64,000 bases of DNA from an uncultured Clostridia bacterium. GTDB lineage: Bacteria > Bacillota > Clostridia > Christensenellales > CALVMC01. The notes below the pieces were generated by a model. It was given only the letters and a program-made list of their open reading frames with translations. It was not told the DNA's origin and did not search any database. A program made the translations under genes and the position numbers. The DNA lies in NCBI GenBank assembly GCA_944342015.1, contig CALVMC010000004.1, forward strand, positions 1 to 64,000. The letters run 5' to 3'. This document shows, piece after piece, positions 1-41,100 of the stretch. Position 1 is the first letter of the stretch; each line of letters starts with the position of its first letter.

Positions 1-2400
1 TTGATTTTAGGCTCTTTCTCTTTTTTAACCTTTTCAGGTTTAACCTTTATCGGTTTTTCCTTTTTAATCTTTTCTTTTTTTACTTTCTCTTTCTTGTCTT
101 TTTTGCTTTCAATGTCTTCCGTTGCAGACTGTGTTTTTAAAGCTGCGGTATTAGGCATACCGAAGCCTGCGCTGCTTTGCGGAACACTTCTTACCTGCGC
201 TTGCGGCTGCCTTGCTTGCGCAGAAGACTGGCTTACTCCGTTAAATCTCGTTATCTGTTCGTTGGAAGTCGATTCGCCCGGCATGCTTCTTCTGACTAGC
301 ATTCCGTTTGCGCTTCCCACACTGCCCCTTGGCATAATCGGCGAAGATGTTGTTACATCCCTTCTTGTGTACTCTTCTCTTTGCGTGCTCTTTACTGCGG
401 TATTGTCTACTGTTGCAAGCGGCTCTTGTGCAAGTTTTCCTTTCTTAACCTTTTCAGGTTTTACCTTCTTGATTTTTTCAGGTTTAACCTTTATCGGTTT
501 TTCCTTTTTAATCTTTTCTTTCTTGACTTTTTCTTTCTTGCCCTTTTTGCTTTCCGTTGTCTCTGCAGAAGCTTGCGCTTTTAGCGCTGCAGTAGTAGGC
601 ATACCAAAGCCTGCGCCGCTTTGCGGAACACTTCTTACCTGTGCTTGCGGCTGCCTTGCCTGCGTAGAAGACTGGCTTGCTCCGTTAAATCTCGTTATCT
701 GCTCGTTGGAAGTCGATTCACCCGGCATGCTTCTTCTCACGAGCATTCCGTTTGCGCTTCCCACGCTGCCCCTTGGCATAATCGGCGAAGATGTTGTTAC
801 ATCCCTTCTTGTATACTCTTCTCTTTGCGTGCTCTTTACTGCGGTATTGTCTACTGTCGCAAGCGGCTCTTGTGCAAGTTTTCCTTTCTTAACCTTTTCG
901 GGTTTTACCTTTTTGATTTTTTCGGGCTTCTCTTTTTTAACCTTTTCAGGTTTAACCTTTATCGGTTTTTCCTTTTTAATCTTTTCTTTCTTGACTTTCT
1001 CTTTCTTGTCTTTTTTGCTTTCCGTTGTCTCTGCAGAAGCTTGCGCTTTTAAAGCTGCGGTATTAGGCATACCGAAGCCTGCGCTGCTTTGCGGAACACT
1101 TCTTACCTGCGCTTGTGGCTGCCTTGCCTGCGTAGAAGACTGAATTGCTCCGTTAAATCTCGTTATCTGCTCGTTGGAAGTCGACTCGCCCGGCATGCTT
1201 CTTCTGACTAGCATTCCGTTTGCGCTTCCCACGCTGCCCCTTGGCATAATCGGCGATGTTGTTACATCCCTTCTTGTATACTCTTCTCTTTGCGTGCTCT
1301 TTACTGCGGTATTGTCTACTGTCGCAAGCGGCTCTTGTGCAAGTTTTCCTTTCTTAACCTTTTCGGGTTTTACCTTTTTGATTTTTTCGGGCTTCTCTTT
1401 TTTAACCTTTTCAGGTTTAACCTTTATCGGTTTTTCCTTTTTAATCTTTTCTTTCTTGACTTTTTCTTTCTTGCCCTTTTTGCTTTCAATCTCTTCCGTT
1501 GCAGACTGCGCTTTTAAAGCTGCGGTATTAGGCATACCGAAGCCTGCGCCGCTCTGCGGAACACTTCTTACCTGTGCTTGTGGCTGCCTTGCCTGTGTGG
1601 AAGACTGGCTTGCTCCGTTAAATCTCGTTATCTGCTCGTTGGAAGTCGATTCACCCGGCATGCTTCTTCTGACCAGCATTCCGTTTGCACTTCCCACACT
1701 GCCCCTTGGCATAATCGGCGATGTTGTTACATCCCTTCTTGTATACTCTTCTCTTTGCGTGCTCTTTACTGCGGTATTGTCTACTGTCGCAAGCGGCTCT
1801 TGTGCAAGTTTTCCTTTCTTAACCTTTTCGGGTTTTACCTTTTTGATTTTTTCGGGCTTCTCTTTTTTAACCTTTTCAGGTTTAACCTTTATCGGTTTTT
1901 CCTTTTTAATCTTTTCTTTCTTGACTTTTTCTTTCTTGCCCTTTTTGCTTTCCGTTGTCTCTGCAGAAGCTTGCGCTTTTAGCGCTGCAGTAGTAGGCAT
2001 ACCAAAGCCTGCGCCGCTTTGCGGAACACTTCTTACCTGTGCTTGCGGCTGCCTTGCCTGCGTAGAAGACTGGCTTGCTCCGTTAAATCTCGTTATCTGC
2101 TCGTTGGAAGTCGATTCACCCGGCATGCTTCTTCTCACGAGCATTCCGTTTGCGCTTCCCACGCTGCCCCTTGGCATAATCGGCGAAGATGTTGTTACAT
2201 CCCTTCTTGTATACTCTTCTCTTTGCGTGCTCTTTACTGCGGTATTGTCTACTGTCGCAAGCGGCTCTTGTGCAAGTTTTCCTTTCTTAACCTTTTCGGG
2301 TTTTACCTTTTTGATTTTTTCGGGCTTCTCTTTTTTAACCTTTTCGGGTTTAACCTTTATCGGTTTTTCCTTTTTAATCTTTTCTTTCTTAGCCTTAATC
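1..2400 (-). repeat. Coding tandem repeat array, unit about 444-468 bp
   Basis: A conserved anchor (GGCTCTTGTGCAAG on the + strand) recurs at 421, 865, 1330, 1795 and 2263, giving periods of 444, 465, 465 and 468 bp, all multiples of three. The array continues through the left edge. Each unit encodes a Lys-rich stretch (KEKPIKVKPEKVKKEK type) followed by a conserved segment containing EYTRRDVTTSSPIMPRGS, MLVRRSMPGES and QITRFNG. Copies are almost identical at the nucleotide level, including third positions, so the expansion is recent or homogenised. Length differences come from in-frame presence or absence of short blocks: one KPEK block is missing in the 444-bp unit, and GEDV versus GDV codons vary on the + strand. 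Confidence 0.95.
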
Positions 2401-5400
2401 GGTTTTTCTTTTAAATTTTTATTGTCGTTAGCAGAAATTTTATTTTTATCGTTTTCAAGTTCCGATAATACTTCGTTGGGACTCTTAACTTTTATAGGTG
2501 TATGTTTGACAACTTCTCCGCTGTAAACAGGTTTTACAAAAGGTTTGTTATTTCCGTTTTGCGCAGATATGGGAGTATGCGCTACTTTTTCGGAAGAACC
2601 CATACCCAACTGTTTATTGGAAGAAGGCACGATTAAATTGTTCTGAGACAAATTCTGATATGACTTTTCGGGAATAACCTGCGGTTTAATATCTTTCTGT
2701 TTTTTAGATTTTTTAATCTTTTCGGCTTTGATTTTTACAGGTTTTATCTTTTTCTCTTTTATCTTTTTATCTTTGGTTTTTTCAGGTTTATTTTCGGAAG
2801 TTATAAATCTGTCGTTTGTTCTTTCCGATACACTTATAGATTTAGAAATAACAGGCACAATATCTGTGTGAATTGAAGTAAGATCTTTTTTCTTGGTCTT
2901 TTTAACTTTTTTGGATTTTACAATTTTTGCATCTATGGCATTATTTAATGTACCGTCACTAACTAAGGCGGTTTTTCTCTTTTTATCTATTTTGGCTTTG
3001 CGTTTTTTAGATTTACCGTAAACTTCATTGGGATCGGAAATCTCTCCTTCTCCGTAATACATTTTATCGACGGTAACAATAAAGTTTTTCTCATCCTTTG
3101 GCGGAGAAATCAGTCTGTTAACTCCGACAGGCATATCTTTGTTTGCTGGAACTTCACTTTTACTTACAACTAAAGCAGAACGGGCTTTTTTGTTCTTTTT
3201 ATATTTTTTTGCGTCGGTAACATGAATTTTCTGTTCGATTTTATTAGCTTTTGATTTTTTCTTATATTGAGCCCGTCTTACAAGTGCAATAAGTAAAAGG
3301 ATAAGTATTACTAAAAGAGTAGCACCTATTGCAATGGCAATAATCAAAAGATAATCGATGGTAGTTTTCTGTGTTTTTATAACAAAAGCCATAACGTCGC
3401 TTTCGATATGATTATCATCGCCTAAAATTCTTACATATATGGTATATTTTTTATTGGCTTTAAGGTCGTTGAAAATATTTTCAGTAGTCCACTCTCCGTC
3501 ATCTCCGATTTTATATTCGGCATTTTCGAGATACTCTAAAGCTATTGCGGAAGTGGTGGTTAAAATTAATATATCGGAAGGCACTTCGGCTTTAACTTTA
3601 TTAATAGTAAGCTGCGAAGTAAGATTATAACTGTAAAAATTCTTGGTCTCGGGAATTTCGGCATAAATAGTGTAAGTGCCGGCATCTTTAATCTTACCGT
3701 CTATTTTTGCAATTTTATTTCCTGCGGCGTCGACAATATAATAGTTTACATAAACATTGTAAAGTCCTGTACCGGGAACTACCTGAACCAAGTTACCCTG
3801 CTTTTCGCCGTTATAATCAAAAACGCCGCTTTCATATTGCAATAGTCCTTCCCAACTGATCTGATTGATCGTAAGTTCGGCGAAATCGCTTTCGCCTTTA
3901 TAATTATAATCATCGATTACAGCTTTCATATAATATACGCCGGCGTCAACCGGGGTATAATTAATTTCCTGATAACTGCTACCGTTTTTGACATAATACT
4001 TAATATAAGTATTGTAATCGCAATTTACATAAGGAGTTATGGGTTCTCTGTAATCTAAAACAAGATCGTCAATGCTAACAGGAGCAACAGCTTTTACTAT
4101 ATTTATTGACGAAGTAATATTCCCTTCATAATTGTCGTTATAAACATTTATAACAACATTGTAGGTTCCAACGCTTACAGGAACTACTTCACTGTCTCCG
4201 ATAAAGTATTTAACCGATCTGATTAAATTATCGCTATAATCGCTTCCGCTGCTGTCTGTTACATTATATAGAACATCTATTTTTGCATTTATGTAATCAT
4301 AATCGGTTTTTGAAATTTTGATAGTCAAAACTTGTTTTTGGACAACGATTCTGAAAGGATTTACCGTATAGTTAGAAGCTCCGTTACCGCTTAATTCACC
4401 TGTTACGAAGTAAACGCCTGCGTTAATAATATCGGAAACTTCTTGGAGAGCGAAAGTTGAAATATTTGCGTCGTTATCTTTAAATACAGTTAAATTAGTT
4501 AAAGATAAACCTGTATCACCGCTTAAATTGAAATATGATTTTAAAGAATTCCAAAAATCCGTGCCGTTATAATATAAGTTATTTAAATCTGCGGTTCCTG
4601 CATAGGCGAGATTCAAAGCTTGCGGAGTAATAGTAAATACAAAATTCTTGTAATTTTCGTTTATAATGATATTGGCGCTGTTGTAGGTTAAAATCTGATA
4701 AGAAGAAAAATTATATTGCCTTACATCTTCCCCTGTATTTCTTATCAATTTAACGGTAACTTTTTCTCCGTTATCCATATAATGATTAACAACGATATTG
4801 GGATCTTGATAGCCGTACTGCTTCGTAAATAAGGCTTTTTCTTGATCTGTAAAATCGTTATAATTCAATGTAACTGTTTTAGGATTGATAATAAATTTAC
4901 CTGTGCCGTTTACAACAACTAAATCGAAATTCACCTTGTCGTTTTCATTGAAGAATTCAGCCGAAGTAAAGGCATAGGAACCTACATTTTCTCCTGGTTG
5001 TCTTACGAGAATATATCTTAAATTATAACTATATCCGTTATCTAATACTAATTGTTTTTGACCTGTAATCTGCCCTTCCGTTTCTCCATAAATCTTATTG
5101 TAAACATTAGGTTCGATTTCGACTTTCAATTTAGTAATACTGAATTTACCTGCGCCGTTGATAATGGAAGCGGTAAAGTTATCGTTATCGATATTTTTTA
5201 CACCTATAAAATCATATACTCCTACCGTTTCTCCCGCTTGTCTTTCAAGAGTAATGGTAATGTTAAAATTGCCTCTTTTTATGTGGATAACGAATTCAGG
5301 ATCGTTGCTTCCGAAAGACTTACTGTAACTTGAAGGGGTTATATTGATATTTTGTTTTTCAATTACAACATCATTATAGCTTACGGAACCCACGGGAACA

Positions 5401-8400
5401 CCGCCATACATAAGAGTATAATTGCTGTTCGAGGAAACTCCCTCGGCAAGAGAAATTATCATAGTATAAGTACCGGCATTAAGGTCGGTGCTATAAGGAT
5501 AATTAATATCGTTAGCGTCCTGCATATATATAAGGAGAGAAACACTGTCGCTGCCGATAAGTCCTGAAATATTAAAGGTATTGATAAGACTGCTCAGACT
5601 TAAAAGTTGCCCGAAAACGAAATTTCTTTTAATCCAATTTAAAGTAATACCTGATTTTCCAACGGAAATTCTGAAATAACCGTCCTCATCGACATTTCCC
5701 GAAAGTAGCACTGCCCTATAATTGGAAGAGCGCAAGTCAATGGAAATTTTATAATCTCCCTGATTAATAAGAGAAGTTTGTTCTCCCAAAAGATTATAAA
5801 TTTTTATTCCGGGAGATATAGTGTCACTGGGATACGGAATATTGTTTTCGAAGCCTTCTCCGGTTTTTAAAGAGTATGTAATATTCCCCGATAAATCCAA
5901 ACCGGTATAGCTTAAATTACTTGCATAAACATTATAATATAAAGTATAAGGATTAATTTCAAAATTAATATCGGAATCGAAATTGTTGTAATTTGAAGAA
6001 CCTGTGATTTTTAAATGGATACTGTAAGAGCCTGCATTATACAATTCCGATACATTATTATTTGTAAGCTCTATAAATACGCCGCTTGAATTTAATTCAT
6101 TTATAACATCGCTTACACCTTTTTCCGACAAATCATTGAAAGTGAAAACAGAAGCTTTATAAACCTTTGAAATTTTTCCGTCTGCATAGTCTTCACCGAA
6201 AAGCATTTCATTAGTGAGATTGATTTTATTTATGGTGAACACTGCAACAATGTTCCCGCCGACAATTTCATATTTATCCGCACAAGAACCGACAGGAACA
6301 AATTTAATATTGTAAATTCCCGCATTTCTTACCGTATCAATTTCATTTCCGGAGTTATCAACGAACACGAATTTATAATCCAAATCGCTTATGATATCAT
6401 TAAAAACATAATTGAGTGTATAACTTACACTGCTTCTGTAATCGTAATCGCTGTAATAATTTAAGATATTGCTTTGAATATCGGTTTGACTTTCCGTTAC
6501 GGTATCATTCATTTTAAGTAATGAAATTTCAAAATTCGAAACAGCGATTTTTTTAGTCGATACGGTAAAAGAATAATTATTGTTAAGTATTCTTACAATA
6601 TAGTTATCATTAGCATATTTGAGAGTTACCGAAAGGGTTATAAGATACTCGCCTACATCGAAAAGAGTTAACTTGGACTTATCGGAAGAGCCTGAATCAC
6701 CGCTTGTTATATTTGTATATTCCCATTGGTAAGATTCTATATAATCGGTGTCGCCTGAAACGAATAAAGAGAGTCCTTCTTCGGAATATTCGGCAGAAGC
6801 CGCTCCGATATCGTTCGTGATTAAATATGTGATTTCTTTTTTTGCTACACTGAATGTAAATTCCTTTTTAGTTTTATTATAATTTGTACCCGAAAAACTG
6901 CTTACGATTATTTCTATTACATAATCACCGGCATTCTGAACCGTTGCGACATACTGATTATAATTATTTTGAGTAAACTGTAAATCAGCATTGATTTTAT
7001 TTCCGTTAACTATTTTAAATACCGAAATATCGGAAATATTTATAATGTATCTTTCTCCGTTAAAGGTTACAGAACAAGGAACGGATAATTTTTGAAGCAC
7101 TTCCTGATATACGAAGGAATTATTTTCAGTAAGAAGCGTCCCCTCATACGAAGGTACGAACAAATCGAAAACATCGCCTAAAACGGAGGTTTTCAATACC
7201 GAATATCGGAAATTAAAATAAGTACCGCTTGTGCTTCCGTTATAAAGCGTGAAATAGGAAACCTTATTTCCGCTGCCTGCTACTCTCAAAATATAATTGC
7301 CTGCGTCACTCATAACGGAGGAAGAGAAGTAATCCGGAAGTTGCGAAGAAGCGTAAGCAAACGACAATCCGAAATCGTCTTTTGCTATGCCCGAATAATT
7401 ATTGTAAGTATCGCCGTTTATTACAAAAGGCGCACCTTGCGAATCGGTAAGGGTAATATATTGTGAAAAATCAATATTTGTTCCGTATGTGAAATTAGAC
7501 GGCGCAAAATATGTAAGGTATATTTTTTTATTTGAAACATTAAGAGTAAAACCGTCTGCCGATAAATTTTCGGTATCATAGTTATTTGTAAATGCAGTTT
7601 TTTCCGTTTGCGTAATATTGGAGTTATAATTAATAGTATAAGTCAAATTTACACCTGAATAACTTGACGGAATGAAAACCGAACCGTAACTAATTTTTAT
7701 TGAATCAATATTATTTATATCTTCACTTAAAATTCCGTAAAGGAAACTTTTATCGATACTGAACTCTTTCAAACCGTCATACTCGGTATTGAATATTCCT
7801 GAAATGCTGATTTTTCTTTTTAAGGTTTTACCGATGTTTAAGGTATATTTATTTGACTCTGCGCTTTCGGTAACGGTCTGTTTTGTTCCGTTAAAATATA
7901 CTTCGAGTTCGTAGCAATTCAAAACGCTGCTAACTGCGCTCAATTCAATGGTAATAGTTTTATTTTCGCCTACCGAAGCAGTATCCAAATTCAATATAAC
8001 GGTAAAGTTATGAACGGAAAGAATACCTGTCAGCGTATAATCTGTATTTAAAATTAAAGCTGTTTTAGAATTATTTCCAGCATACTCTTTTTCTACATTC
8101 GTTAAATCGACTCTTGCAATTCTTTTATTAATTGTTGCCTGACCGGTTGTACTGCCGAGAACATCGAGAACATAATTAGAACTTCCTCTGAAATTATAAG
8201 TTACGTTGCTTCCCCCTACATTAGCACTACTAAAATAAGCGGTTATTACAAGATTTTTTTCTTCGCTTGTCAAATTATTATCATCGATAAAACCTGTAAT
8301 ATTGAAATTAAAACCTTCTGCTTTTTGACCGCCACTGAAAATCGTATTACTATAAAGTGAATCGTAAGTTTTCGATAAGTTTGAAATTACTATTTGCCTT

Positions 8401-11400
8401 GCCGTTATCTGTCCGTTTAATGTATAACTGTTTAATATGTTGACATTTTCGAAATCGGAATTCAATTCCCATACTATTTTTACCATTCCGGCATTAACTG
8501 TTTCATAATAAACTTTTAATTCAATACTGAATAGCAATGAATAATATTCATTGCTGAAATTAACGGTTAAATCGCTACCGCTCAAACTGTAAGTTATATA
8601 GCTGCTGCTTATTCCGGAAGTTGCAATTTCAATATAATCGGACAAGTTTTTATTCTGCGGAATTACAATTAAACTGTTACCGTCATATTCTTTGCTTAAA
8701 ACATCTTTAAATGTTATGCTTATATCTCTTTTAACTATTTCGACTGCGTTTAAAACGGTTACATAAAAATCGTCTCTATAAATTAAAATCTGTAAATCAT
8801 ATAAATTACTGTCGTCCCCTTTAAGTACAGACTGCGTACCGCCTTTAAGATAAATATTTAAACTCTGTAATCCTACTCCTGCCCCGCTTAAAATAAAGTT
8901 ATTTTGAAAAACAGTTGTATCTAAAATAATATTATCGTTTTCAATAACTCCGACAAGGGCTAATTTAGTTATATCTATTCCCGTTATAGTGTTTGACCCG
9001 TCATACTGCTTTACGGTATAAGGATAGGATAATGTCAAAGTTCTTTTATTTATTGTAACATTTAGATTGCTGTAATTTTGGGGTATAGTATAATATCCGG
9101 TAAATATACCGTTTTCACTTAAAGAAACCTTTATCGATTGCTGCACTCCCACCTTTTTAAAATCGAAATCGGTTAAACTATAAACCAGTTCGTCTATAAA
9201 AAGTTCGGGAAGTTTTGAGTCCGAACTTGTCTGACCGCCGATTATACCTATGAAGTAAAAGCCTGAAATCTGACTGCTGTCGTTATTAATTACGGTGTAT
9301 CCTTGACCGGACAAAAGAAATTGTTTTAGAAGTTCTTTGAGTTCTGATTCGTTTGTCGCATCCCCGTACATAAAATTCAATGAACTGAAATTAACTTCTT
9401 TCTGACTTTTAAGTATTATGAGACTGTCGGTAAAAGTAAAACTGTTTCTTCCCGATATGGAATAATTGGAATCGGAAGTGAAATTAACGGTGTAACTAAG
9501 TTCCACATAATTTGCAGAACCTAAATATAAGTCGTTGAATAATGTAATATCGTTAAGCGATTTTGATAAATTTATATAGAAACCGCTTTGCGAAAAATTT
9601 AAAGAAGGCATTGCTAAATTCCATAATTTTTCGGCAATTTGCTCTTCTGAATTGAAGTCTCCGTAATAAAAGGAGATTTTACCTACATCGATACCGTTAA
9701 ATAACGATGCAAAATCAACGTAAAAATCGTATCTGTAAATATTAACATTTATATTACCGTTATTGTTAAGTATGAAATTATATGAGCCGATTCCTTCGAT
9801 ATCGTTATTTATACTCATCGTAATATAATAGGAACCGCAATCGAGACTACCCGAAGAAGAAGGGATACCTTGGTTGTAAAAAACAAAATTTAAATACTGT
9901 TGTAAATTTGAATTTTCTAAATTGTTTTTTATCGTGTCACTTGTGAATGTAAATTGAATATTAGATTTAGCAGTATTTACAAAAGTAGCAGGAAGAAGTC
10001 TTGAATTGTATTCCTGCAAAATATCGGGAACTGTAACCAAAATATTAGCCTTGACGACTTCAAAAGTAAAGCATCTCGAAAAATAGTTTACTGAATCTTC
10101 GCTGACGGTGACTGAATAGTTTCCGTCAAAACTCACCGTTATTGTATTGTTGTCTGAAACGGGTATTAAATCGGTTAACACATAATAATCCCCGAATGAA
10201 AAATTAACCAGTTTAAAATTCGCCCTTTCAAAATCCATTAAAGCGATATTTCCCGAAACAATATCGTAAAACTCATCGGTTGAATTCATTATTGAACCGT
10301 AGGTATATTCGCCGTATTCGAAAAAGGCTTTGTTGAATTTTATAGTTAAAGGCCTTTTGGAAACTGTAAAAGTATCGCTTCCTATAAGTACCAAATCATA
10401 ATTGGAATCACTAACGGAATTTAACAATACCTGATAACTACCCGCAATGACGGCACTAGTCCCGCCGTTAAAAGAAATGGTATAATTATTATAATCGTTT
10501 TTTAAACTATAACCTGTAAGTATATTTGCAAGGTCGGAAATGTTCACGTTTGCGGTATTGACAGTAAACAGTTCGGTTGCCGAGGGGAAAGGCTCTCCGT
10601 AAGTTAAATTAACATAATTTCCGTTTAACTCAAATAAAATCTGCTTTTTAAATATTTCAAAAGCTTCTTTAAAGACAAAACTATTATTTTCAATTTCAGC
10701 CTGAATATCGCTTCCGTTAAGCGAAACGGTCTCTACGACAAAATTCTGAATTCCGCCGCCTATATAGCTAACTTTAACGGTAATATTGTATTTGCCTGCA
10801 TTTTCACCTTTACTTCTTATAATGCTGACAGCAAAACTGTTTTGAATATCGTTGGAATTTAAAATTTCGCTTGATATAGATTGAGTATCGCTATTTAAAA
10901 TGAGATATGTAAATAAAGGATCGCTTTCACTGTAAATTTTCGATAATTCTCCGTTAATAATAACTTTCAGCCCAGCTTTATTTACGGTAAATTTCGAAGA
11001 TGTTGCCCCCGATATAATAGCTCCTTCGGAATCTTTATAGTACTTATTTACAATCTTATAGTTATCGTTTAAAATACCGAGAATCGATATATCGTATTCA
11101 CCTGCGTCCGAAATCTTATCGAAAACAGTATTTCCTTTTTTTATGGTAAATGTAAGACCTTCTTTAATCTGACTTAACTGTATATCGGTTAAATTTTGAA
11201 CTACCGATGAATGAGAGCTGTTTACCGCAATTTCTGTATATTCGGAAAGAGAGATGTTTGCTCCGTCATAATTTTTACTTGATTCTTTATAAGTTACATC
11301 AATTTTTAAAGGTAAAATTTCAAAAGTAGTACTGCTTAAAATCAACTGATAATCATTAAGCCCGCTTATAGAATTATTCAATAAATTTCTGATATCGCTT

Positions 11401-14400
11401 TCACTTATAGAAAATCCTATATTGTAAACTCCGACATTTCCGCTTTCATCGTATGAATAACCTAACTCACTTTTTAAAGCATTTTCAATGCTTGACGCAA
11501 AATCTTTAAGTGCATTGCTTACATAAAATTTAATAACTAATTTATCTGTATTGAAATCCTGAGTATAAATAATCTGATTCCCGTCATTTGCGGTTATATA
11601 TTCTATCGAAATATTTATTATTTTTTTAAGTTTCGCTGCCAAAATACTTTGACTGTATGTTTTTCCTGCACTGTTTGAAAGACTAACTGTAACACTGTCA
11701 TTTTCCGAGAGATTTGTAATATTATAACGGTAATCGTAATAAGGAATATCGGAATCGGAAGATGTTAAACTTTCTTCCCCGAAAGTTACGCTGACCGTAC
11801 TTCCGCTTAAAGAAGTATCTTTTAAATATAAATAATGATTATTATTATTTATATCATAAATAACATGGTAGACAAACGAAGGTAACTCCTTATCTATTTT
11901 AATAACGATAGGCTGAGAATCGTTATAAGTTCCGTTCCCTGCCTCATTTCGTATAATAACATTATATATACCGCTTGCGGTAAAATCGATATTATAGAAA
12001 TTACCCGATTTATTGATTGCATTCCAATTAAATCCGCCGTCGGTGCTATAACTTACCGTATTTCCGCTTATATTTAAAGAACTCAAAGAAATCTGAATTC
12101 TTACCGATTTGTCCGACCAACTGTCTGCCGTATAATCGGAACTTGTTCCGTTATCGGTTTTATACAAATTATAATTTATATCCGAAGGTTCGGAAAAGTC
12201 AGTCTTGACAAAATAAGAGTATTCCGTACTTATACCGGTAAGAGTCGACCTTATATTTACCGTTAATTTATAAACTCCGTTATACTGAGCGTCTTTTTTA
12301 AATGAAAAATTGAGAGCCTCCAAAGAATCTTTTGTCACGGAAATAGAACTTCCGCTAAAACTCTCATTCAGAAAATTTAAATTTGAAACAGACTCGCCGT
12401 CTTTTTCAAAAGAAACGGAATAGGTGTAAGAGCCGTAAAAAAGCCCTGAATTTATTATGGAAACGGAAACGGATGAACTGCTCCACTGTGCGTTTTCCTC
12501 ATCGCCTATAATTTCGTATTTACCATTCTCGTTATTTGCGGTAATAAGTATTTCCGGTCCGTTATTATAATCGACTATTAAATAAAATTCCTTATCTTTC
12601 CCCGAGAAAACGCTATCGGTACTGCCGGATTTATAATTAACCGTGTAAGAAATATAATACAAACCCTCGCCTAAATTAATAGGTCTGTTATAATAGCTGT
12701 ATGTTTTTGTAACGCTTTCGGATAAAGTCTCTACTTTGTTTATGGAATATTTAATAAAATAGAAATTAAATCCGTTATTTAAAAGTTCCGGAACGAGAAG
12801 AACGTTATTATCTGAATAATAAACATCTTTGCCTCCGAATTTATTAGATAAGGCAGTTAAACTGTTATTGTCGGAAATTTTAGTAATATTATTCGATAGC
12901 GCAACTTGACCGCTGCAATCGATTTTTACTCTTACGGGAATTATTCTTTCGCCGGACACTGCAAAAAGCCTGATATATAAATAACCGTTGAAAGAAGTCG
13001 ATAAGACTATATCACTTTCTTCGCTCTGCCCTACGCCTATGGAAGAAAGAAGTTTGTCAGAACCCGGCACTAACGAAGTTTTTTGATAAAGTATATTCGA
13101 AAAATTATAATTATCTGATACCGTTACATCAAACGGTACATTTATTGAAAAATCACTTTTGTAAAGCGAAATGTTTATATTAAGGCTTTCGCCGTTTAAT
13201 ATCAAATCTCCTTCGCTTATTTTTGAAGAAGAGGTATTAACTCTGTAAAGTTCGGTTTGAAAATCCGGTAAGGATTTGAGAACCTTAGTATAAAAATACA
13301 AAACTTCTTGACTTCCGGCTTCGTTTCTGGCTCTTAAAACTACCGAGGTATTAGAGTCGTAATCAATGAACACCCCTTGCACGCTGTCGTAAGTCATCCA
13401 AACTAAATTTTCGCCTATTCCCACGGAATATTCAAAATAAATCGGACTGAGATTGGAAGAAGATACATTTGAAAGATTCATAAGTATCTGTAAACTGTCG
13501 TTTGTCCATTCCGTGGTATAATGGGAATAATCTCCGACAGTTGTTTGGGTTAAATTCAATAAGCTTTTACTGCCGTCATCTTTTACGGAATATGCGCTGA
13601 GTCCCGTAAATAACGAAGACAAATCCCTTTTATCTATTTTTACCGCAAATGTATCGGGACAAATATATTCAATGTAGTACTCATTAATATTCCCTAAACT
13701 TTTTACGGCTCTGAACTCATATACGGTATTTGCGCTATCGCTGATAGTAAGTCCGCTTTCAGGCATTAAATTCCATGTCAGCTCGCCCGAGCCCGCAGCC
13801 CTGTAATAATACTGAACAGTAATATTGCTATCGCCGAAAAGTGTTTTGTTTTCGATATTAAGAGTTACATTTTGATTTGTCCATGTTCCGTAATAATTAT
13901 TTGATGCCGAAATTGAAGAAACGGAAAAATAAGGCATTGCAAACTGAAAATTAGCCGTAAAATAACTTGTTGCACCTTTATTTCCTAGTTCGTCTTGAAG
14001 ATAGAAGGCAAGATAATATTTTCCTTCCGGAGTGTTTTCGTTAAAGCCTAAATCGGAAAGCGTAACGCTGTTTGCAGAATTGAGATTTATCTTTTTAAAA
14101 TCTCCGTCGTCTATTGTCGGGGCGCTATCTTGTGAGTATTTTGCGTATCCGAAATACAAACTGTTCAAAGAGCCGTAATTTATATTAAATGTATCCGAAG
14201 ATATTTGTTCAAAGCTAACAATATCCCCCGTTCTTAAAGTGTACATTTCGCCGTTTACGGTTTGACCGCTTAAATAAACTTCGCCCACATCGTCGGATGA
14301 AGAATCAATTTTTAAAATTTCAACTCTCCCGACCTCTGCAATTTGATAAATTCTGTCACCCGATTTAGCGCCTAACCCTAAAACGACATTTACGTTATTG

Positions 14401-16751
14401 CCGTTAATACCCGGGAAAAAGAGCTTGGATATTTCTATTGTACCTGAATTTATGGTAACCGAACCTGCACTGTTAAGTTCTGAAAACGATACGAAATTGA
14501 TTTTATCGGAATTGAAATAAGAATAATAAATACCGTATAAAGTTGAAATATTTATCGCATTTGTATTGCTTAATTTAAAACTTATATTTTCAAGTCCTCT
14601 TCTCCAACCGTTGCTGTCCGTGCTTCCTTGACTGTAAGTAAAATCGGAAGCGGTAAGAGCCGATACTGTAACTGTGGTTTTTTCTATATCGTCAGCGAAA
14701 ATAACCGTAGAATCAAAATCGACATAAGCAAAAACCGATTTGTCTATTTCCACGGATAATCCATTGAATGTATAGCTGTTTTGCGAAGACGCAACATATG
14801 CGCTGTAAGTTCCTGTGTAGGCAAGATTCTCCTGAATATATTTTCCGTCGCCGTTATCCGCCATGACGCATTTTTCAAAACCGCTTAAAAGATTTCCGTT
14901 TGCATTATAAAAATCATAATTGCACAGTAAACTGTTTTGATTAGAATTTCCCGTAAAGGCAAAACTTTTTGACGCATTCTGTCTTACGGCTTTACCTCTT
15001 TGAAGAAAACTTAATGTTAGTCCGTGTCCATTTGAGCCTGATGACGGATTTTTTAAGTAAGTTGCATTTTCGTCAACCGTGACATAGACTATTTTATCTT
15101 TAACGGCGATATTTTTTTCGGCAAGACTTTCGCCCTCTTGCTGATAAAGTGTTAAAAATAAATTTAAATTATTTCCGTTATTGACTGTTTCTGTTTCCGT
15201 TAGATTGGAAAAAGAGCCGTTTGCCGTATAAATTCTTTCAAGTACTTTTTGGGAACTTCCGAGAACGAGAACCTTGTTTCCGTTTGTATAACTGCTTTCC
15301 CCGACGGCGGTGGTTTTGAATGTTATATTAAATCCGTCGGTTTTTAATGAAACAATATCCGCTTCGCTTCCGCTACTTGTACCTAAGCCGCTTACGGTGT
15401 AATAACCGGATAAAAGTTTAATAACAGAATCTTTTACGGTTAATCCCCATTTTGCATAAGGATTGTTTTGCATATATGTAATTAAGGATTTGGAAGCTCT
15501 TGTGTAAAAAATATTCTGAACATTCTGATCGCTTATGGATATACTTGACGAACAGTTTAACGTATAACTGATCGTAGGTGCAGCACCTTTGTATCTGTAA
15601 GTAAAAAGGGTATCGTTTATAATTCCGTTTAATCTGAGAGTGTTATTCCCCCAATACCCTATAACGCCGCCTATGTATTTGCCTGATACGCTTTCGCTAC
15701 TGTCGGCGCTCATATACACAGCACCGCTAGCGTCATCTGTAAAGACCTTTATATTGTTGATATTCGAAGCGGTTGAATTTACATACCCTATCGCTCCGCC
15801 CATCCGAATGGTGCTACCGGAAGTGCATGCGGTAGAATCGATATACAAGCCGCTGCCTGCCTTATAAGTTACACTGAGACCGGATATCGTCCCTTGCGAA
15901 CTGTCGCCTACAAAACCGCCAGCGTTTACAACATTACGGTTTACAGAAGAAATAAATTTTACTTTGCCTTCCATCGTCAGCGAACAGTTAAAAATACTGC
16001 CCGAATTCTTACCTACCACCGTGCCGAAATTAGCGATATTTTTATTAGTGTTACCGTCAAATGCTCTTGTAGTAACATAAATATTATTTTTTACCACAAA
16101 ATTAACATTTGAAATCAGTCCCGCATTCTGAGAAACAAAAAACGAAAAACTGTCTGTAACACTTGGCCAGGCATAATTTAAAGGACTCGATTCGCTTCCT
16201 ACCTCTCCGCCGTTAAGTTCAATTTTATATCCGTTGCCGTAAAGAGAGCGCCCTTGTGCCAAAGAAGGATTCCCATCAAAAAAAAGATTGTTGTCTTCAT
16301 AGTAAAACCACCAGAACCCTGTTATGTCGTTTGCAAGATAAGCGTTGTTATATTTAACGAGATCGGCGGCATATTTATCTTTTTCTTCCTGAGAAGCGCT
16401 TTCGGAAGGAGCCGTAGGAGCAGTAGCGTTTATAAACTCTTTAAGCTGTGCAGCGGTTTTAATCTGAGTATAATTTTCACGATAATCGTATGCAGAATTA
16501 TTTTTGTAATCGGAATTTGCAGTAATTTTTCTTTCGGGAATATTTTCTTCGATAGTGGAAATATTTGCTCCTATTGTATTTGAAGAAGATACATTTTCCG
16601 TAACTGAATCTGAAAATGAATTATTTGTTAGAAAGGAATTATGGATCGAATTGCCGCCAAAATAAAATACAGAAGAAAATATAACCGCAATTAATATAAT
16701 AACGGTTAAAAACTTAAACGAATTAAAAACTGTACTTTTTTGCAATCTCAT
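1..16751 (-). CDS. Giant bitopic surface protein (partial, C-terminus beyond window)
   Basis: The minus frame starting at the ATG at 16751-16749, behind a strong GGGGGGAG ribosome site, shows no stop down to base 3: at least 5,583 codons. Residues about 12-33 form a signal anchor. Next comes a GLUG-like stretch, then thousands of residues of beta-rich extracytoplasmic modules. Many carry a YDG motif (KEYDGNSL at about 8670-8695; also NYDG, QYDG and EYDG variants) typical of YDG/MBG domains. A hydrophobic helix at 3278-3355 (about residue 4465-4490) is followed by RRAQYKKKSK, so the remaining 1,090 or more residues should be cytoplasmic. That tail is Lys/Glu/Pro-rich and ends in near-identical tandem repeats. 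No LPXTG or sortase signal is seen. A role as adhesin, envelope scaffold or bitopic receptor is inference. I read the frame by eye in sections; a machine translation should confirm it is uninterrupted. Confidence 0.9.
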   Translation of the reverse strand, partial: MRLQKSTVFNSFKFLTVIILIAVIFSSVFYFGGNSIHNSFLTNNSFSDSVTENVSSSNTIGANISTIEENIPERKITANSDYKNNSAYDYRENYTQIKTAAQLKEFINATAPTAPSESASQEEKDKYAADLVKYNNAYLANDITGFWWFYYEDNNLFFDGNPSLAQGRSLYGNGYKIELNGGEVGSESSPLNYAWPSVTDSFSFFVSQNAGLISNVNFVVKNNIYVTTRAFDGNTNKNIANFGTVVGKNSGSIFNCSLTMEGKVKFISSVNRNVVNAGGFVGDSSQGTISGLSVTYKAGSGLYIDSTACTSGSTIRMGGAIGYVNSTASNINNIKVFTDDASGAVYMSADSSESVSGKYIGGVIGYWGNNTLRLNGIINDTLFTYRYKGAAPTISYTLNCSSSISISDQNVQNIFYTRASKSLITYMQNNPYAKWGLTVKDSVIKLLSGYYTVSGLGTSSGSEADIVSLKTDGFNITFKTTAVGESSYTNGNKVLVLGSSQKVLERIYTANGSFSNLTETETVNNGNNLNLFLTLYQQEGESLAEKNIAVKDKIVYVTVDENATYLKNPSSGSNGHGLTLSFLQRGKAVRQNASKSFAFTGNSNQNSLLCNYDFYNANGNLLSGFEKCVMADNGDGKYIQENLAYTGTYSAYVASSQNSYTFNGLSVEIDKSVFAYVDFDSTVIFADDIEKTTVTVSALTASDFTYSQGSTDSNGWRRGLENISFKLSNTNAINISTLYGIYYSYFNSDKINFVSFSELNSAGSVTINSGTIEISKLFFPGINGNNVNVVLGLGAKSGDRIYQIAEVGRVEILKIDSSSDDVGEVYLSGQTVNGEMYTLRTGDIVSFEQISSDTFNINYGSLNSLYFGYAKYSQDSAPTIDDGDFKKINLNSANSVTLSDLGFNENTPEGKYYLAFYLQDELGNKGATSYFTANFQFAMPYFSVSSISASNNYYGTWTNQNVTLNIENKTLFGDSNITVQYYYRAAGSGELTWNLMPESGLTISDSANTVYEFRAVKSLGNINEYYIEYICPDTFAVKIDKRDLSSLFTGLSAYSVKDDGSKSLLNLTQTTVGDYSHYTTEWTNDSLQILMNLSNVSSSNLSPIYFEYSVGIGENLVWMTYDSVQGVFIDYDSNTSVVLRARNEAGSQEVLYFYTKVLKSLPDFQTELYRVNTSSSKISEGDLILNGESLNINISLYKSDFSINVPFDVTVSDNYNFSNILYQKTSLVPGSDKLLSSIGVGQSEESDIVLSTSFNGYLYIRLFAVSGERIIPVRVKIDCSGQVALSNNITKISDNNSLTALSNKFGGKDVYYSDNNVLLVPELLNNGFNFYFIKYSINKVETLSESVTKTYSYYNRPINLGEGLYYISYTVNYKSGSTDSVFSGKDKEFYLIVDYNNGPEILITANNENGKYEIIGDEENAQWSSSSVSVSIINSGLFYGSYTYSVSFEKDGESVSNLNFLNESFSGSSISVTKDSLEALNFSFKKDAQYNGVYKLTVNIRSTLTGISTEYSYFVKTDFSEPSDINYNLYKTDNGTSSDYTADSWSDKSVRIQISLSSLNISGNTVSYSTDGGFNWNAINKSGNFYNIDFTASGIYNVIIRNEAGNGTYNDSQPIVIKIDKELPSFVYHVIYDINNNNHYLYLKDTSLSGSTVSVTFGEESLTSSDSDIPYYDYRYNITNLSENDSVTVSLSNSAGKTYSQSILAAKLKKIINISIEYITANDGNQIIYTQDFNTDKLVIKFYVSNALKDFASSIENALKSELGYSYDESGNVGVYNIGFSISESDIRNLLNNSISGLNDYQLILSSTTFEILPLKIDVTYKESSKNYDGANISLSEYTEIAVNSSHSSVVQNLTDIQLSQIKEGLTFTIKKGNTVFDKISDAGEYDISILGILNDNYKIVNKYYKDSEGAIISGATSSKFTVNKAGLKVIINGELSKIYSESDPLFTYLILNSDTQSISSEILNSNDIQNSFAVSIIRSKGENAGKYNITVKVSYIGGGIQNFVVETVSLNGSDIQAEIENNSFVFKEAFEIFKKQILFELNGNYVNLTYGEPFPSATELFTVNTANVNISDLANILTGYSLKNDYNNYTISFNGGTSAVIAGSYQVLLNSVSDSNYDLVLIGSDTFTVSKRPLTIKFNKAFFEYGEYTYGSIMNSTDEFYDIVSGNIALMDFERANFKLVNFSFGDYYVLTDLIPVSDNNTITVSFDGNYSVTVSEDSVNYFSRCFTFEVVKANILVTVPDILQEYNSRLLPATFVNTAKSNIQFTFTSDTIKNNLENSNLQQYLNFVFYNQGIPSSSGSLDCGSYYITMSINNDIEGIGSYNFILNNNGNINVNIYRYDFYVDFASLFNGIDVGKISFYYGDFNSEEQIAEKLWNLAMPSLNFSQSGFYINLSKSLNDITLFNDLYLGSANYVELSYTVNFTSDSNYSISGRNSFTFTDSLIILKSQKEVNFSSLNFMYGDATNESELKELLKQFLLSGQGYTVINNDSSQISGFYFIGIIGGQTSSDSKLPELFIDELVYSLTDFDFKKVGVQQSIKVSLSENGIFTGYYTIPQNYSNLNVTINKRTLTLSYPYTVKQYDGSNTITGIDITKLALVGVIENDNIILDTTVFQNNFILSGAGVGLQSLNIYLKGGTQSVLKGDDSNLYDLQILIYRDDFYVTVLNAVEIVKRDISITFKDVLSKEYDGNSLIVIPQNKNLSDYIEIATSGISSSYITYSLSGSDLTVNFSNEYYSLLFSIELKVYYETVNAGMVKIVWELNSDFENVNILNSYTLNGQITARQIVISNLSKTYDSLYSNTIFSGGQKAEGFNFNITGFIDDNNLTSEEKNLVITAYFSSANVGGSNVTYNFRGSSNYVLDVLGSTTGQATINKRIARVDLTNVEKEYAGNNSKTALILNTDYTLTGILSVHNFTVILNLDTASVGENKTITIELSAVSSVLNCYELEVYFNGTKQTVTESAESNKYTLNIGKTLKRKISISGIFNTEYDGLKEFSIDKSFLYGILSEDINNIDSIKISYGSVFIPSSYSGVNLTYTINYNSNITQTEKTAFTNNYDTENLSADGFTLNVSNKKIYLTYFAPSNFTYGTNIDFSQYITLTDSQGAPFVINGDTYNNYSGIAKDDFGLSFAYASSQLPDYFSSSVMSDAGNYILRVAGSGNKVSYFTLYNGSTSGTYFNFRYSVLKTSVLGDVFDLFVPSYEGTLLTENNSFVYQEVLQKLSVPCSVTFNGERYIINISDISVFKIVNGNKINADLQFTQNNYNQYVATVQNAGDYVIEIIVSSFSGTNYNKTKKEFTFSVAKKEITYLITNDIGAASAEYSEEGLSLFVSGDTDYIESYQWEYTNITSGDSGSSDKSKLTLFDVGEYLITLSVTLKYANDNYIVRILNNNYSFTVSTKKIAVSNFEISLLKMNDTVTESQTDIQSNILNYYSDYDYRSSVSYTLNYVFNDIISDLDYKFVFVDNSGNEIDTVRNAGIYNIKFVPVGSCADKYEIVGGNIVAVFTINKINLTNEMLFGEDYADGKISKVYKASVFTFNDLSEKGVSDVINELNSSGVFIELTNNNVSELYNAGSYSIHLKITGSSNYNNFDSDINFEINPYTLYYNVYASNLSYTGLDLSGNITYSLKTGEGFENNIPYPSDTISPGIKIYNLLGEQTSLINQGDYKISIDLRSSNYRAVLLSGNVDEDGYFRISVGKSGITLNWIKRNFVFGQLLSLSSLINTFNISGLIGSDSVSLLIYMQDANDINYPYSTDLNAGTYTMIISLAEGVSSNSNYTLMYGGVPVGSVSYNDVVIEKQNINITPSSYSKSFGSNDPEFVIHIKRGNFNITITLERQAGETVGVYDFIGVKNIDNDNFTASIINGAGKFSITKLKVEIEPNVYNKIYGETEGQITGQKQLVLDNGYSYNLRYILVRQPGENVGSYAFTSAEFFNENDKVNFDLVVVNGTGKFIINPKTVTLNYNDFTDQEKALFTKQYGYQDPNIVVNHYMDNGEKVTVKLIRNTGEDVRQYNFSSYQILTYNSANIIINENYKNFVFTITPQALNLAYAGTADLNNLYYNGTDFWNSLKSYFNLSGDTGLSLTNLTVFKDNDANISTFALQEVSDIINAGVYFVTGELSGNGASNYTVNPFRIVVQKQVLTIKISKTDYDYINAKIDVLYNVTDSSGSDYSDNLIRSVKYFIGDSEVVPVSVGTYNVVINVYNDNYEGNITSSINIVKAVAPVSIDDLVLDYREPITPYVNCDYNTYIKYYVKNGSSYQEINYTPVDAGVYYMKAVIDDYNYKGESDFAELTINQISWEGLLQYESGVFDYNGEKQGNLVQVVPGTGLYNVYVNYYIVDAAGNKIAKIDGKIKDAGTYTIYAEIPETKNFYSYNLTSQLTINKVKAEVPSDILILTTTSAIALEYLENAEYKIGDDGEWTTENIFNDLKANKKYTIYVRILGDDNHIESDVMAFVIKTQKTTIDYLLIIAIAIGATLLVILILLLIALVRRAQYKKKSKANKIEQKIHVTDAKKYKKNKKARSALVVSKSEVPANKDMPVGVNRLISPPKDEKNFIVTVDKMYYGEGEISDPNEVYGKSKKRKAKIDKKRKTALVSDGTLNNAIDAKIVKSKKVKKTKKKDLTSIHTDIVPVISKSISVSERTNDRFITSENKPEKTKDKKIKEKKIKPVKIKAEKIKKSKKQKDIKPQVIPEKSYQNLSQNNLIVPSSNKQLGMGSSEKVAHTPISAQNGNNKPFVKPVYSGEVVKHTPIKVKSPNEVLSELENDKNKISANDNKNLKEKPIKAKKEKIKKEKPIKVKPEKVKKEKPEKIKKVKPEKVKKGKLAQEPLATVDNTAVKSTQREEYTRRDVTTSSPIMPRGSVGSANGMLVRRSMPGESTSNEQITRFNGASQSSTQARQPQAQVRSVPQSGAGFGMPTTAALKAQASAETTESKKGKKEKVKKEKIKKEKPIKVKPEKVKKEKPEKIKKVKPEKVKKGKLAQEPLATVDNTAVKSTQREEYTRRDVTTSPIMPRGSVGSANGMLVRRSMPGESTSNEQITRFNGASQSSTQARQPQAQVRSVPQSGAGFGMPNTAALKAQSATEEIESKKGKKEKVKKEKIKKEKPIKVKPEKVKKEKPEKIKKVKPEKVKKGKLAQEPLATVDNTAVKSTQREEYTRRDVTTSPIMPRGSVGSANGMLVRRSMPGESTSNEQITRFNGAIQSSTQARQPQAQVRSVPQSSAGFGMPNTAALKAQASAETTESKKDKKEKVKKEKIKKEKPIKVKPEKVKKEKPEKIKKVKPEKVKKGKLAQEPLATVDNTAVKSTQREEYTRRDVTTSSPIMPRGSVGSANGMLVRRSMPGESTSNEQITRFNGASQSSTQARQPQAQVRSVPQSGAGFGMPTTAALKAQASAETTESKKGKKEKVKKEKIKKEKPIKVKPEKIKKVKPEKVKKGKLAQEPLATVDNTAVKSTQREEYTRRDVTTSSPIMPRGSVGSANGMLVRRSMPGESTSNEQITRFNGVSQSSAQARQPQAQVRSVPQSSAGFGMPNTAALKTQSATEDIESKKDKKEKVKKEKIKKEKPIKVKPEKVKKEKEPKI

Positions 16752-17031: not shown

Positions 17032-17763
17032 ATGTTAAACTTTATATTACTGGTAACTGTATTTTTGATTGGTTTTATTACCGGAGGACTTCTTAATCCG
17101 ATAATAGTTTTTGCACCCAAAAAAAATTACAGAAATGTTTCAGACCTATACTGTCCGTATTGCGGAAGAAAGTACAAGTTTTACGAACATATCTCCATTT
17201 TTTCTTATATTTTCTTGAACGGTTGTTGCGCAAGTTGTAACCAGAAAATAAATTATACCAATCAGTATGTTATTTTAATAAATATAATATTTTATTTTTT
17301 CAGTTACCTTGTTTACGGATTTTCGCCTTTTGCGATAATACTGGATATATCGCTTTCTCTTTTTCTCGCTCTTGCCGTAATACAGGTTAAATACAACTGT
17401 ATTCCGAGAAAGCTTCTTGTCCCCTGTTTTATACTTTCACTGCTTACATTCGTTCCGCAAATAGGCGGAGAGATTATGTATTATTCAAAGTTAATTGCAG
17501 CGGCAGTGGCGATCGTTTTCTATTTTATTCTTGCATTCAGCATAAAAAGCAAAAAGGAAGAGGGACTTGCCCTTATTACGATTGCGATAATTTTAGGACT
17601 TCAAAATTTTGTTTATGCCCTTTTTCTTTCGTTTATATTCGTAATATTATTTTTAATTATTTATTCAAAAAAAGGTGAAAGAACATTCAGTAGAGTTTAT
17701 ATAATTCCTTTCCTTACGGCAGGTTATTTTATATCTGCACTTACAGGCGTATTGTTCTTATAA
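17032..17763 (+). CDS. Degenerate A24-type prepilin peptidase homologue (probably inactive)
   Basis: This 243-residue polytopic membrane protein follows the prepilin peptidase plan. It has a short N-terminal helix, a cytoplasmic zinc-ribbon-like loop with two cysteine pairs (CPYC at about 41-44, CASC at about 66-69), then about six helices ending in an IPF-LTAGYF segment that matches the family's last helix. Both catalytic aspartates seem lost. The first motif, normally ID-x8-IP, reads IQVKYNCIP. The second, normally GxGD, reads KKEEGLAL. Family assignment is from overall resemblance; loss of activity is inferred. No pilin or pilus ATPase genes are in the window. A TATAAT box (17018-17023) sits 8 bases before the ATG and no Shine-Dalgarno is visible, so the mRNA may be leaderless. 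It is divergent from the giant surface gene. Confidence 0.7.
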   Translation: MLNFILLVTVFLIGFITGGLLNPIIVFAPKKNYRNVSDLYCPYCGRKYKFYEHISIFSYIFLNGCCASCNQKINYTNQYVILINIIFYFFSYLVYGFSPFAIILDISLSLFLALAVIQVKYNCIPRKLLVPCFILSLLTFVPQIGGEIMYYSKLIAAAVAIVFYFILAFSIKSKKEEGLALITIAIILGLQNFVYALFLSFIFVILFLIIYSKKGERTFSRVYIIPFLTAGYFISALTGVLFL

Positions 17764-38111: not shown

Positions 38112-41100
38112 ATGGAAAGAATAAAAAAACTTGTAAGTATTTTTCTTGCATTAATTTTTGCACTCACATCAATAGTATGGTTATATACCAATACTGATTT
38201 TACTTCTGCTTATGCAGATAATAAAGTAACCAATATGAGTTATAGAACGACAGGCGAAGCAGGTACTGAGGACGACCCTTATATATTAAAAACCGCATCC
38301 GATCTTACAGAACTTGCCACATTAGTCAATAACGGAAACAGTTATGAAGGCGAATACTTTATAATGAATAACAATATATCCTTAGCCTCCGTGACAAATT
38401 GGACGCCTATCGGCACTGAAACAAATCCTTTTAAAGGTAATTTGGACTGTCATAATTACAAAATAACCGGACTTAATTTAAGTAACGGTTCGAGTCTTTT
38501 CGGTTTTGTCGAAAACGCAGTTATTGAAAAACTTTATATCGAATGCTCAGACTTAACCCCCGATATAAATACGGCAGTAGTAGCTAAGCAAGCAACCGGC
38601 ACAATATTCAGGTATATAGATATAAAAGTCGGAAATATCGCCAATGCAATCGACACTGTTGAAAATTTCGGTATACTTGCAGGAAAAGCCTTTAATTGCG
38701 AAATAAACGGCGTAGAAACAAGCGCAACCGTAAATCTCGGTTCATTTAATATAACCAATATCGGCGGCATTATAGGTCTTGCTGAAAACAGCATAATTAT
38801 TAACTGCACTAATAAAACAAATATTAATTCAATATCAAGCAACAGCGGCGGTATAGTAGGATATGCAACCGATACTGAAATTACATATTGCAGAAACAGC
38901 GCAAATATTATTTCAAAAGGCAACGCAGGAGGAATAGCTGGAAAAATTTCCTTAAACAATAAACTTTCTTCCGACTACAATAATCTTATAAACAGACCGG
39001 AAAGTGAAAGCGTTCCTATCCCCCCTTCCGAAAATATTGTTATCGGTAGGGACTCTTCTTCGAATGCCTTAAATGCAGGTGGTATTTTCGGTTCCGTTGT
39101 TTTTGAAAACGGCGCCGAAAATTACGATATTACACTGCGTTACAATTACAGTATTTGCATACTTTCCTATTCAAATAACGCAAGCGGTCTTTATGGAGAT
39201 TTAAGCGCAAATTCAGGCAGCGGTAACATTAATTTGATTTTAGGCAATTCCTATGTAATCAATAATTACGACAATTGTATAGCAACAAAACCGACTTACA
39301 ATATCAATTCGTCCTATTCCTCAAAATTCGGAATAAATATCATCAGTAACGATTTAAACGAATCCACTTTATACTCTACCGATTATTCAGAAAACACAAA
39401 CCATATAGATGTAAGCGTTCTGCCTTCAATGAATGCGGAAACACTTCTGAACGCAGATAAAAACAATCCCGAAAGCAAAATTGTGTTCATGAGAAATATA
39501 ATACTCGGCAACAATAATGAAGAAACCGGCGAATACGGATATCCTATGCTTTCATGGGAATTTTTTGCAGGCGGTAACGGCACGGAAAACAATCCTTACC
39601 TTATAAAAACCAACAGTCAGATGTATATTTTAAAATATGTCTGCACGACGCAGACTTCCATCGCTCAGGATTTTAATACGGCATCATATAAGGTTATCAA
39701 ATCTTATCTTAATTTCGGTAATTTTCCAAACGTTGGCTATACTAGTGTGCTTTTCAATTTTTCGGGTCACTTTGACGGCGATTTCAACATGTTTAATACA
39801 CTAGCAAATTTAGGAAAACCTATCTTTGATTCTCTGAGTGAAGGAAGCATTGTAGAAAATATAATATTTGCAAAAGGAACTATCAATATAGCTTTCGGAG
39901 ATAAAACTTCTGATCATAGTGATTCAGTATCATTAATTGTGGCTAACAATTACGGCACCATTAGAAATATAATGACCAATCTTAATATAGTATTCGCAAA
40001 AAAACAAAATATAGGCGATATAGGCGGATCGTTAATGTTCAAATCTTCCATTATATGCGTAACAAATTACGGTATTATTGAACAATGCGTAAACACAGGT
40101 AATATAACTTGCGAATTTTTTGACCATGTTCCGTTTTTCGGTTTTATTTCAAATTCCAATTACGGTACAATCAAAAATTGTTACAATACCGGAAATATTG
40201 AAAACATTAAAGTTGAATCTAGCAATACACATTCCCCTTTAATTGCGGGTATAACCGTTAATAATTATAAAGACGCTGTTTTGGAAAACTGTTACTTTGC
40301 AGGAAAAATCAGTTTTGCAGAAGGTACCAATAAAAATCAAATTATATTGGATCCTATATCCGTTTATTCCTATTCAACTATCATAAATTGTTATTATAAC
40401 GGTTATGTTGCCGATTTTGAAAAATATCCGAGTTTGAACACAGCTACATCTCTTTATGTCGACGAAATGGTGACTCTTCCCGAAAATACCAAACCTATTG
40501 GTTTTGTCGATTTTGACGAAAGCATATGGTATTTCAAAGAAGGCGATGAAAGCACAAGAACTTTTTATTATCCTCAGCTTCAAGTATTCAAAAATATAGC
40601 CGAACATTCGGTAACGTTAAACAAGGCGGATTATGTCTCTTCAACAGGAAACGAAGAAGATAATTTTTCAAGATATTTTCTTGCGGGAACGGCTCTCAGA
40701 GAACCTGCGACTTCTAATTATTCGGGTTATGATTTTGCAGGCTGGCATTTTGACGAAGAATTAACTTACAGATATTTCTTCAATACGCCCGTAGATAGCG
40801 ATATTACCCTTTATGCTAAATGGAACTTAATCGCACCTGAAGTAACTCTGACTTCCAACAAAGATGATAACACGACCTATGTAAAAGAAAATCTTATAAT
40901 GACTCTCGACGTTAAATCGGACGCCGAAAACGGAAGAGTTGTAAGTTATTTATGGCGCAGAACCGACGGTGTAATTTTCAGCGATAACACTTTAAGCACA
41001 TTTACTGTAAACGCTCTCAATGAGGCGGCAACTTATTTTTGTTTAGTAACATTTACCGATGGAAAACAAACGGTTGTTGCCAAATCAAACGAACTTACCG

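Follow-up and report, generated by a model that had tools for sequence, protein, structure and literature searches.

Bacterial giant adhesins are usually treated as proteins that lie entirely outside the cell, where they are held by the wall or by the outer membrane. Among them, the giant adhesins assembled from MBG and YDG modules (PF18676, PF18657) resemble the protein described here in their size and in the presence of modules that score above the Pfam cut-off. Unlike them, our giant has neither an LPXTG motif nor a sortase; it appears to span the membrane and continues for 1,158 residues beyond it. The Giant1-5 proteins of Apilactobacillus kunkeei provide another point of comparison, since they are repetitive surface proteins of 3,000-8,000 aa with a basic C-terminus, encoded in a genome of about 1.5 Mb (PMC12863079). 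It has been proposed that the positive charge of their C-terminal ends attaches them to the negatively charged wall, and they are predicted to have no transmembrane domain (PMC12863079), whereas the present protein contains a transmembrane helix. Expanded Lys-rich tandem repeats are also found in Plasmodium GARP-type proteins, which they direct to the erythrocyte periphery in a manner that depends on repeat number (PMC5207086), but these are unrelated eukaryotic proteins and not bacterial adhesin tails. Nearer at hand, a 5,220-aa giant from another family of the same order (L111, genome G139) has an MBG_2 match of 94 bits, a late helix and a tail of 429 aa. This tail differs in being acidic, Ala/Pro-rich and capped by an end resembling ribosomal protein uL15, and no similarity between the two tails was found. 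A literature search that reached few subscription papers returned no description of adhesin tails of this kind.

The window, by which we mean the whole stretch of 64,000 nucleotides that was analysed, starts at the first base of contig C4 in the genome of an uncultured Clostridia bacterium (1.44 Mb in 18 contigs, 86% complete). A first-pass annotation had described one uninterrupted minus-strand frame there, and its coordinates were correct: translation of the window yields 5,583 codons with no stop anywhere between positions 3 and 16751, as against 417 and 494 stops in the other two minus-strand frames over the same interval. The principal features of the gene are these.

3..16751, minus strand: open reading frame of the giant surface protein, 5,583 aa in the window and 5,649 aa with 66 aa from contig C11
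16656..16712, minus strand: N-terminal hydrophobic segment, aa 14-32, a signal peptide or an uncleaved anchor (hydropathy peak 2.48)
10773..10946, minus strand: MBG_2 module, aa 1936-1993 (PF18676, 31.4 bits against a cut-off of 25)
7944..8108, minus strand: YDG module, aa 2882-2936 (PF18657, 29.7 bits against a cut-off of 25)
5154..5348, minus strand: MBG_2 module, aa 3802-3866 (PF18676, 41.4 bits; three stretches in this 600-aa piece)
3279..3350, minus strand: transmembrane helix, aa 4468-4491 (hydropathy 3.31; identical in both species of the genus)
3..3278, minus strand: Lys-rich C-terminal tail, predicted from charge and composition to be cytosolic and disordered, and under purifying selection
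31..2390, minus strand: tail repeat array, about 5 copies of a unit of ~465 bp (TRF, 91-94% match)

Because the window begins at the edge of contig C4, the giant gene is cut at its C-terminal end. Contig C11, from the same genome, also ends in the tail repeat and has an exact 77-base overlap with C4, which takes in sequence unique to the last repeat unit. C11 contributes 66 residues, ending ...GLTNKNNDKDKK and followed by a stop codon, so that the overlap supplies the true C-terminus of the gene beyond the contig end. The full-length protein has 5,649 aa, of which 1,158 lie beyond the membrane helix, and the giant with a long repetitive post-helix tail that had been noticed initially is real. 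The number of repeat units may still be miscounted in the assembly. A search of contigs for relatives of the tail found the congener CASFOZ01 alone (contig CASFOZ010000004.1, an uncultured Eubacteriales bacterium, genome 95% complete), which has the same layout, with the giant gene on its own C4 and the C-terminus on its own C11. In this congener the frame breaks in the first repeat unit. The break falls where two unit variants seem to have been joined, and past it the coding constraint persists on C11, so that an assembly fault is more likely than a real truncation.

Inspection of the ectodomain bears out part of the earlier description, in which YDG/MBG-like modules fill about 4,400 residues. 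MBG_2 or YDG exceeds the Pfam cut-off in three regions, which lie between about aa 1936 and 3866; the first ~1,900 aa have no Pfam match above cut-off. Sequence searches with the 1,886 ectodomain residues that precede the helix found no relatives of solved structure. The net charge of the ectodomain is -173. Synonymous divergence from the congener is uneven along the protein, dS being about 0.10 in aa 2000-3000 and 0.87 between aa 4000 and the helix, and this strong variation suggests that the ectodomain has recombined or undergone mosaic exchange.

By hydropathy the giant has only two strongly hydrophobic segments, aa 14-32 and aa 4468-4491. The second of these confirms the membrane helix followed by RRAQYKKKSK that had been pointed out in the first pass, and it is the sole part of the AlphaFold2 model of the giant to reach a pLDDT of 70-90. 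The flank on its C-terminal side is strongly basic and that on its N-terminal side (KTQKTTIDY) is nearly neutral. A single late helix with a basic C-side flank is the arrangement of a single-pass protein, and the positive-inside rule predicts a cytosolic tail and an external ectodomain. No LPXTG-type motif was found in the giant, the only approximation being IPSSS at aa 2296, and sortase (PF04203) was undetected in both genomes of the genus (86% and 95% complete) in searches for which the control genomes were positive. In view of these two results a membrane anchor is to be expected. The contrast with LPXTG adhesins that had been drawn earlier therefore holds with respect to motif and sortase, but not as a peculiarity of this gene; as judged from sequence, the tail plan is common to other proteins of the genome and of the order.

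The portion of the tail that lies in the window comprises 1,092 aa, of which 19% are Lys, with a net charge of +144 and no Cys, in agreement with the original description of a Lys-rich tail that ends in tandem repeats. Between the two species, dN/dS is 0.102 in the non-repeat tail (294 codons, dS 0.62), 0.103 in the C-terminal 66 aa and 0.084 in the ectodomain adjoining the helix. Within the giant, divergence between repeat units reaches 25% at synonymous sites, and the pooled pN/pS is 0.145. From these low ratios, between species and between units, it is evident that the tail is translated and that its amino-acid sequence is maintained. Units 1 and 4 are identical across 113 codons, which implies recent copying or conversion among the units. 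On a charge-hydropathy plot, 96% of the 60-aa windows of the tail fall on the disordered side, compared with 8% of those of the ectodomain, and the tail is therefore probably intrinsically disordered. When AlphaFold2 was run on the last modules, the helix and the tail together, confidence was confined to the helix; the alignment consisted of two sequences, so that the low confidence in the tail is a weak sign of disorder. For the tail, Pfam gave no match above cut-off, and no convincing homologue beyond the genus was found in 297 genomes of the order, nor any in viral contigs.

A search for the same plan elsewhere in the genome was productive, yielding two further surface proteins with post-helix tails. 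One of them, a protein of 1,896 aa (P0001) encoded within the window, consists of a signal-like N-terminal segment, an ectodomain, a helix, a Flg_new module and a Lys-rich stretch. Its features, together with the motif that its tail has in common with that of the giant, are as follows.

38112..43802, plus strand: second tailed surface protein, 1,896 aa, with the plan of the giant
41331..41411, plus strand: its transmembrane helix (10-residue blocks average pLDDT 79-97, AlphaFold2)
41424..41615, plus strand: Flg_new module (Listeria-Bacteroides repeat), which follows the helix directly (PF09479, residues 1105-1168)
41412..43799, plus strand: its tail, 796 aa, Lys-rich past the Flg_new module
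41760..41783, plus strand: motif AIDATIVK in this tail, 116 aa past the helix
2916..2939, minus strand: motif AIDAKIVK in the tail of the giant, 113 aa past the helix

Flg_new is usually a surface module or repeat; in P0001 it has a dN/dS of 0.034 and lies on the predicted cytosolic side of the helix. The third tailed protein (L068, at 115 kb on contig C4) has about 188 aa past its helix, with Flg_new first. BLAST of the giant tail against the P0001 tail gave nothing significant, and the third tail aligned with them no better than shuffled sequences did. Local alignment of the giant and P0001 tails was equalled in 6 of 1,000 shuffles near the helix, but in 55 of 500 when the longer tails were taken. 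The AIDA motif itself, an 8-residue window, was matched by chance in 4 of 400 shuffles, which is modest evidence when taken alone. However, the pattern AIDA[KT]IVK is confined to these two genes in each of the two genomes, and with this uniqueness and the similar spacing from the helix it is unlikely that the sharing arose by chance.

In other families of the order, most proteins related to the last ectodomain module stop 4-16 residues past the helix, and a long tail is therefore not the rule for proteins with this module. A query made of the helix plus Flg_new found proteins of another genus (g6, family f6) that continue for 930 and 1,125 aa past the helix. Many of the matches of this query in the order proved to be N-terminal lipoprotein signals rather than tails and were set aside. 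The g6 tail ends match the C-terminal domain of ribosomal protein uL15 (PF00828, 39-41 bits) and score 35 bits against the NCBIfam rplO model, under its cut-off. A query taken from these ends matches 155 of the 297 genomes of the order, some of the weaker matches perhaps being ordinary L15 or reaching no further than the module's first half. The 39 sequences that were read carry the module at their C-terminal end or very close to it, and in the majority a hydrophobic helix precedes it in frame. They include four giants with a late helix and a uL15-like end, in which 327-429 residues follow the helix: L110 (5,398 aa), L111 (5,220 aa, with MBG_2), L112 (4,144 aa) and L113 (4,207 aa, with Big_2). 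A 19-member profile of the module matches ribosomal uL15 chains (E 8e-12), 18 of the 19 members match PF00828, and five or more families of the order (f3, f6, f16, f24 and f32 among them) have membrane-protein tails capped in this way. The first half of the module, of the YSELKN type, has no consistent Pfam family; one such query found nothing in roughly 277 sampled genomes from other orders of the class and was positive in 5 of 14 from its own order. The YSELKN segment and the uL15 domain thus apparently form an order-specific composite C-terminal module (L109, L110-L117, L079-L108). In one genome (G140; L114-L116 and further contigs) there are at least 8 copies of the uL15-like module, several of which end tailed membrane proteins of 1,700-2,533 aa, with near-identical ends. 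The window's own genome encodes, on contig C2, a 2,779-aa protein (L109) that ends in a uL15-like module; two N-terminal helices are followed there by about 2,570 residues that are Gln/Pro-rich and then heptad-like. The module is absent from the tail and C-terminus of the giant itself, in contrast to the related tails.

We propose, in what we regard as having about an even chance of being correct, that the giant is a sortase-free, membrane-spanning adhesin of a gut clostridial lineage, the Lys-rich tail of which would act as an internal tether and scaffold by means of many blocks and at least one specific motif. The N-terminus would direct export, about 4,400 residues including the MBG/YDG modules would come to lie outside the cell, the helix at aa 4468-4491 would stop transfer and the tail, which from its composition and charge is probably a disordered polycation, would remain in the cytosol. 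The many Lys-rich blocks of each tail might then bind an anionic or scaffold partner multivalently, and such binding could both resist pull-out of a very long adhesin and cluster it. The presence of AIDAxIVK in two tails would reflect at least one specific partner common to both. Some observations weigh against an internal anchor: the tail part of the query gave no strong match in the sampled genomes of the order, the tail belongs to no Pfam family at cut-off, and the frame break in the congener, if real, would leave the tail short in that species. It is also conceivable, although we consider it unlikely, that the tail binds RNA or ribosomes and that the order's surface giants link the membrane to the machinery of translation, either through the uL15-like domain or through Lys-rich repeats. 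The first-pass description had suggested a cytoskeletal, ribosomal, nucleic-acid or signalling partner inside the cell, and the uL15-like tail ends of other families lend indirect support to the ribosome or nucleic-acid side of that list. They cap membrane proteins of five or more families, giants of 4,144-5,398 aa among them, as well as the 2,779-aa membrane protein of the same genome. However, the tail of the present giant lacks the domain, and a uL15-like fold is no proof of ribosome binding, as it may be reused for contacts between proteins.

If the tail were instead outside the cell, its positive charge could bind anionic wall polymers, and the helix would be an export intermediate or an inverted anchor. 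The wall-binding proposal for the basic ends of A. kunkeei Giant1-5 (PMC12863079) offers a precedent, and Flg_new is present past the helix in related tails. But those giants are predicted to have no membrane helix (PMC12863079), the helix of our protein is strong and is followed by dense basic residues, and the post-helix segment of its relatives ends in a uL15-like domain, so that we hold an external tail to be quite improbable. Apicomplexan TRAP-type adhesins and mycoplasma adhesins are the natural comparison for linkage to a scaffold through a tail. By analogy with them the tail might attach the giant to a scaffold that serves the cytoskeleton, division or motility, as would suit a single-pass adhesin with a long tail, and the heptad-like, membrane-anchored 2,779-aa protein, if cytosolic, could be such a scaffold; since no gene linkage was seen and no scaffold partner was found, this possibility is distinctly doubtful. 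Finally, the repeats might be a neutral expansion of low-complexity DNA without function. The identity of units 1 and 4 over 113 codons speaks for such an expansion, but the low pN/pS between diverged units and the dN/dS of about 0.10 elsewhere in the tail already largely contradict it, and we regard it as very improbable. The internal tether is the reading that we prefer.

A broader possibility, which we put forward tentatively and regard as rather unlikely as it stands, is that giants throughout the order cross the membrane and that their cytosolic tails, which differ in sequence between Lys-rich repeats in this protein and a uL15-like module in others, dock on RNA, on ribosomes or on a shared inner scaffold, linking adhesion to the cell interior. 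The idea is based on the constrained tail of more than 1,000 residues, on the several tailed proteins of a genome in which no sortase was detected and on the order-wide uL15-like caps. If it were true, surface attachment would be coupled to the cytosol in a manner comparable to eukaryotic integrin-like adhesins. Given these caps in distant relatives, what surface giants hold inside the cell becomes a testable question.

Two features of the gene neighborhood may be recorded. Upstream of the giant gene and divergent from it, a gene at 17032-17763 of the window (plus strand) encodes a protein with a prepilin-peptidase N-terminal domain (A24_N_bact, 47 bits). At the other end, in both species, the giant gene is convergent with a gene for a 732-aa protein in which TIR and Sel1-like-repeat domains were called by eye (L017, 6885-9083, plus strand; L016, 418-2616, minus strand).
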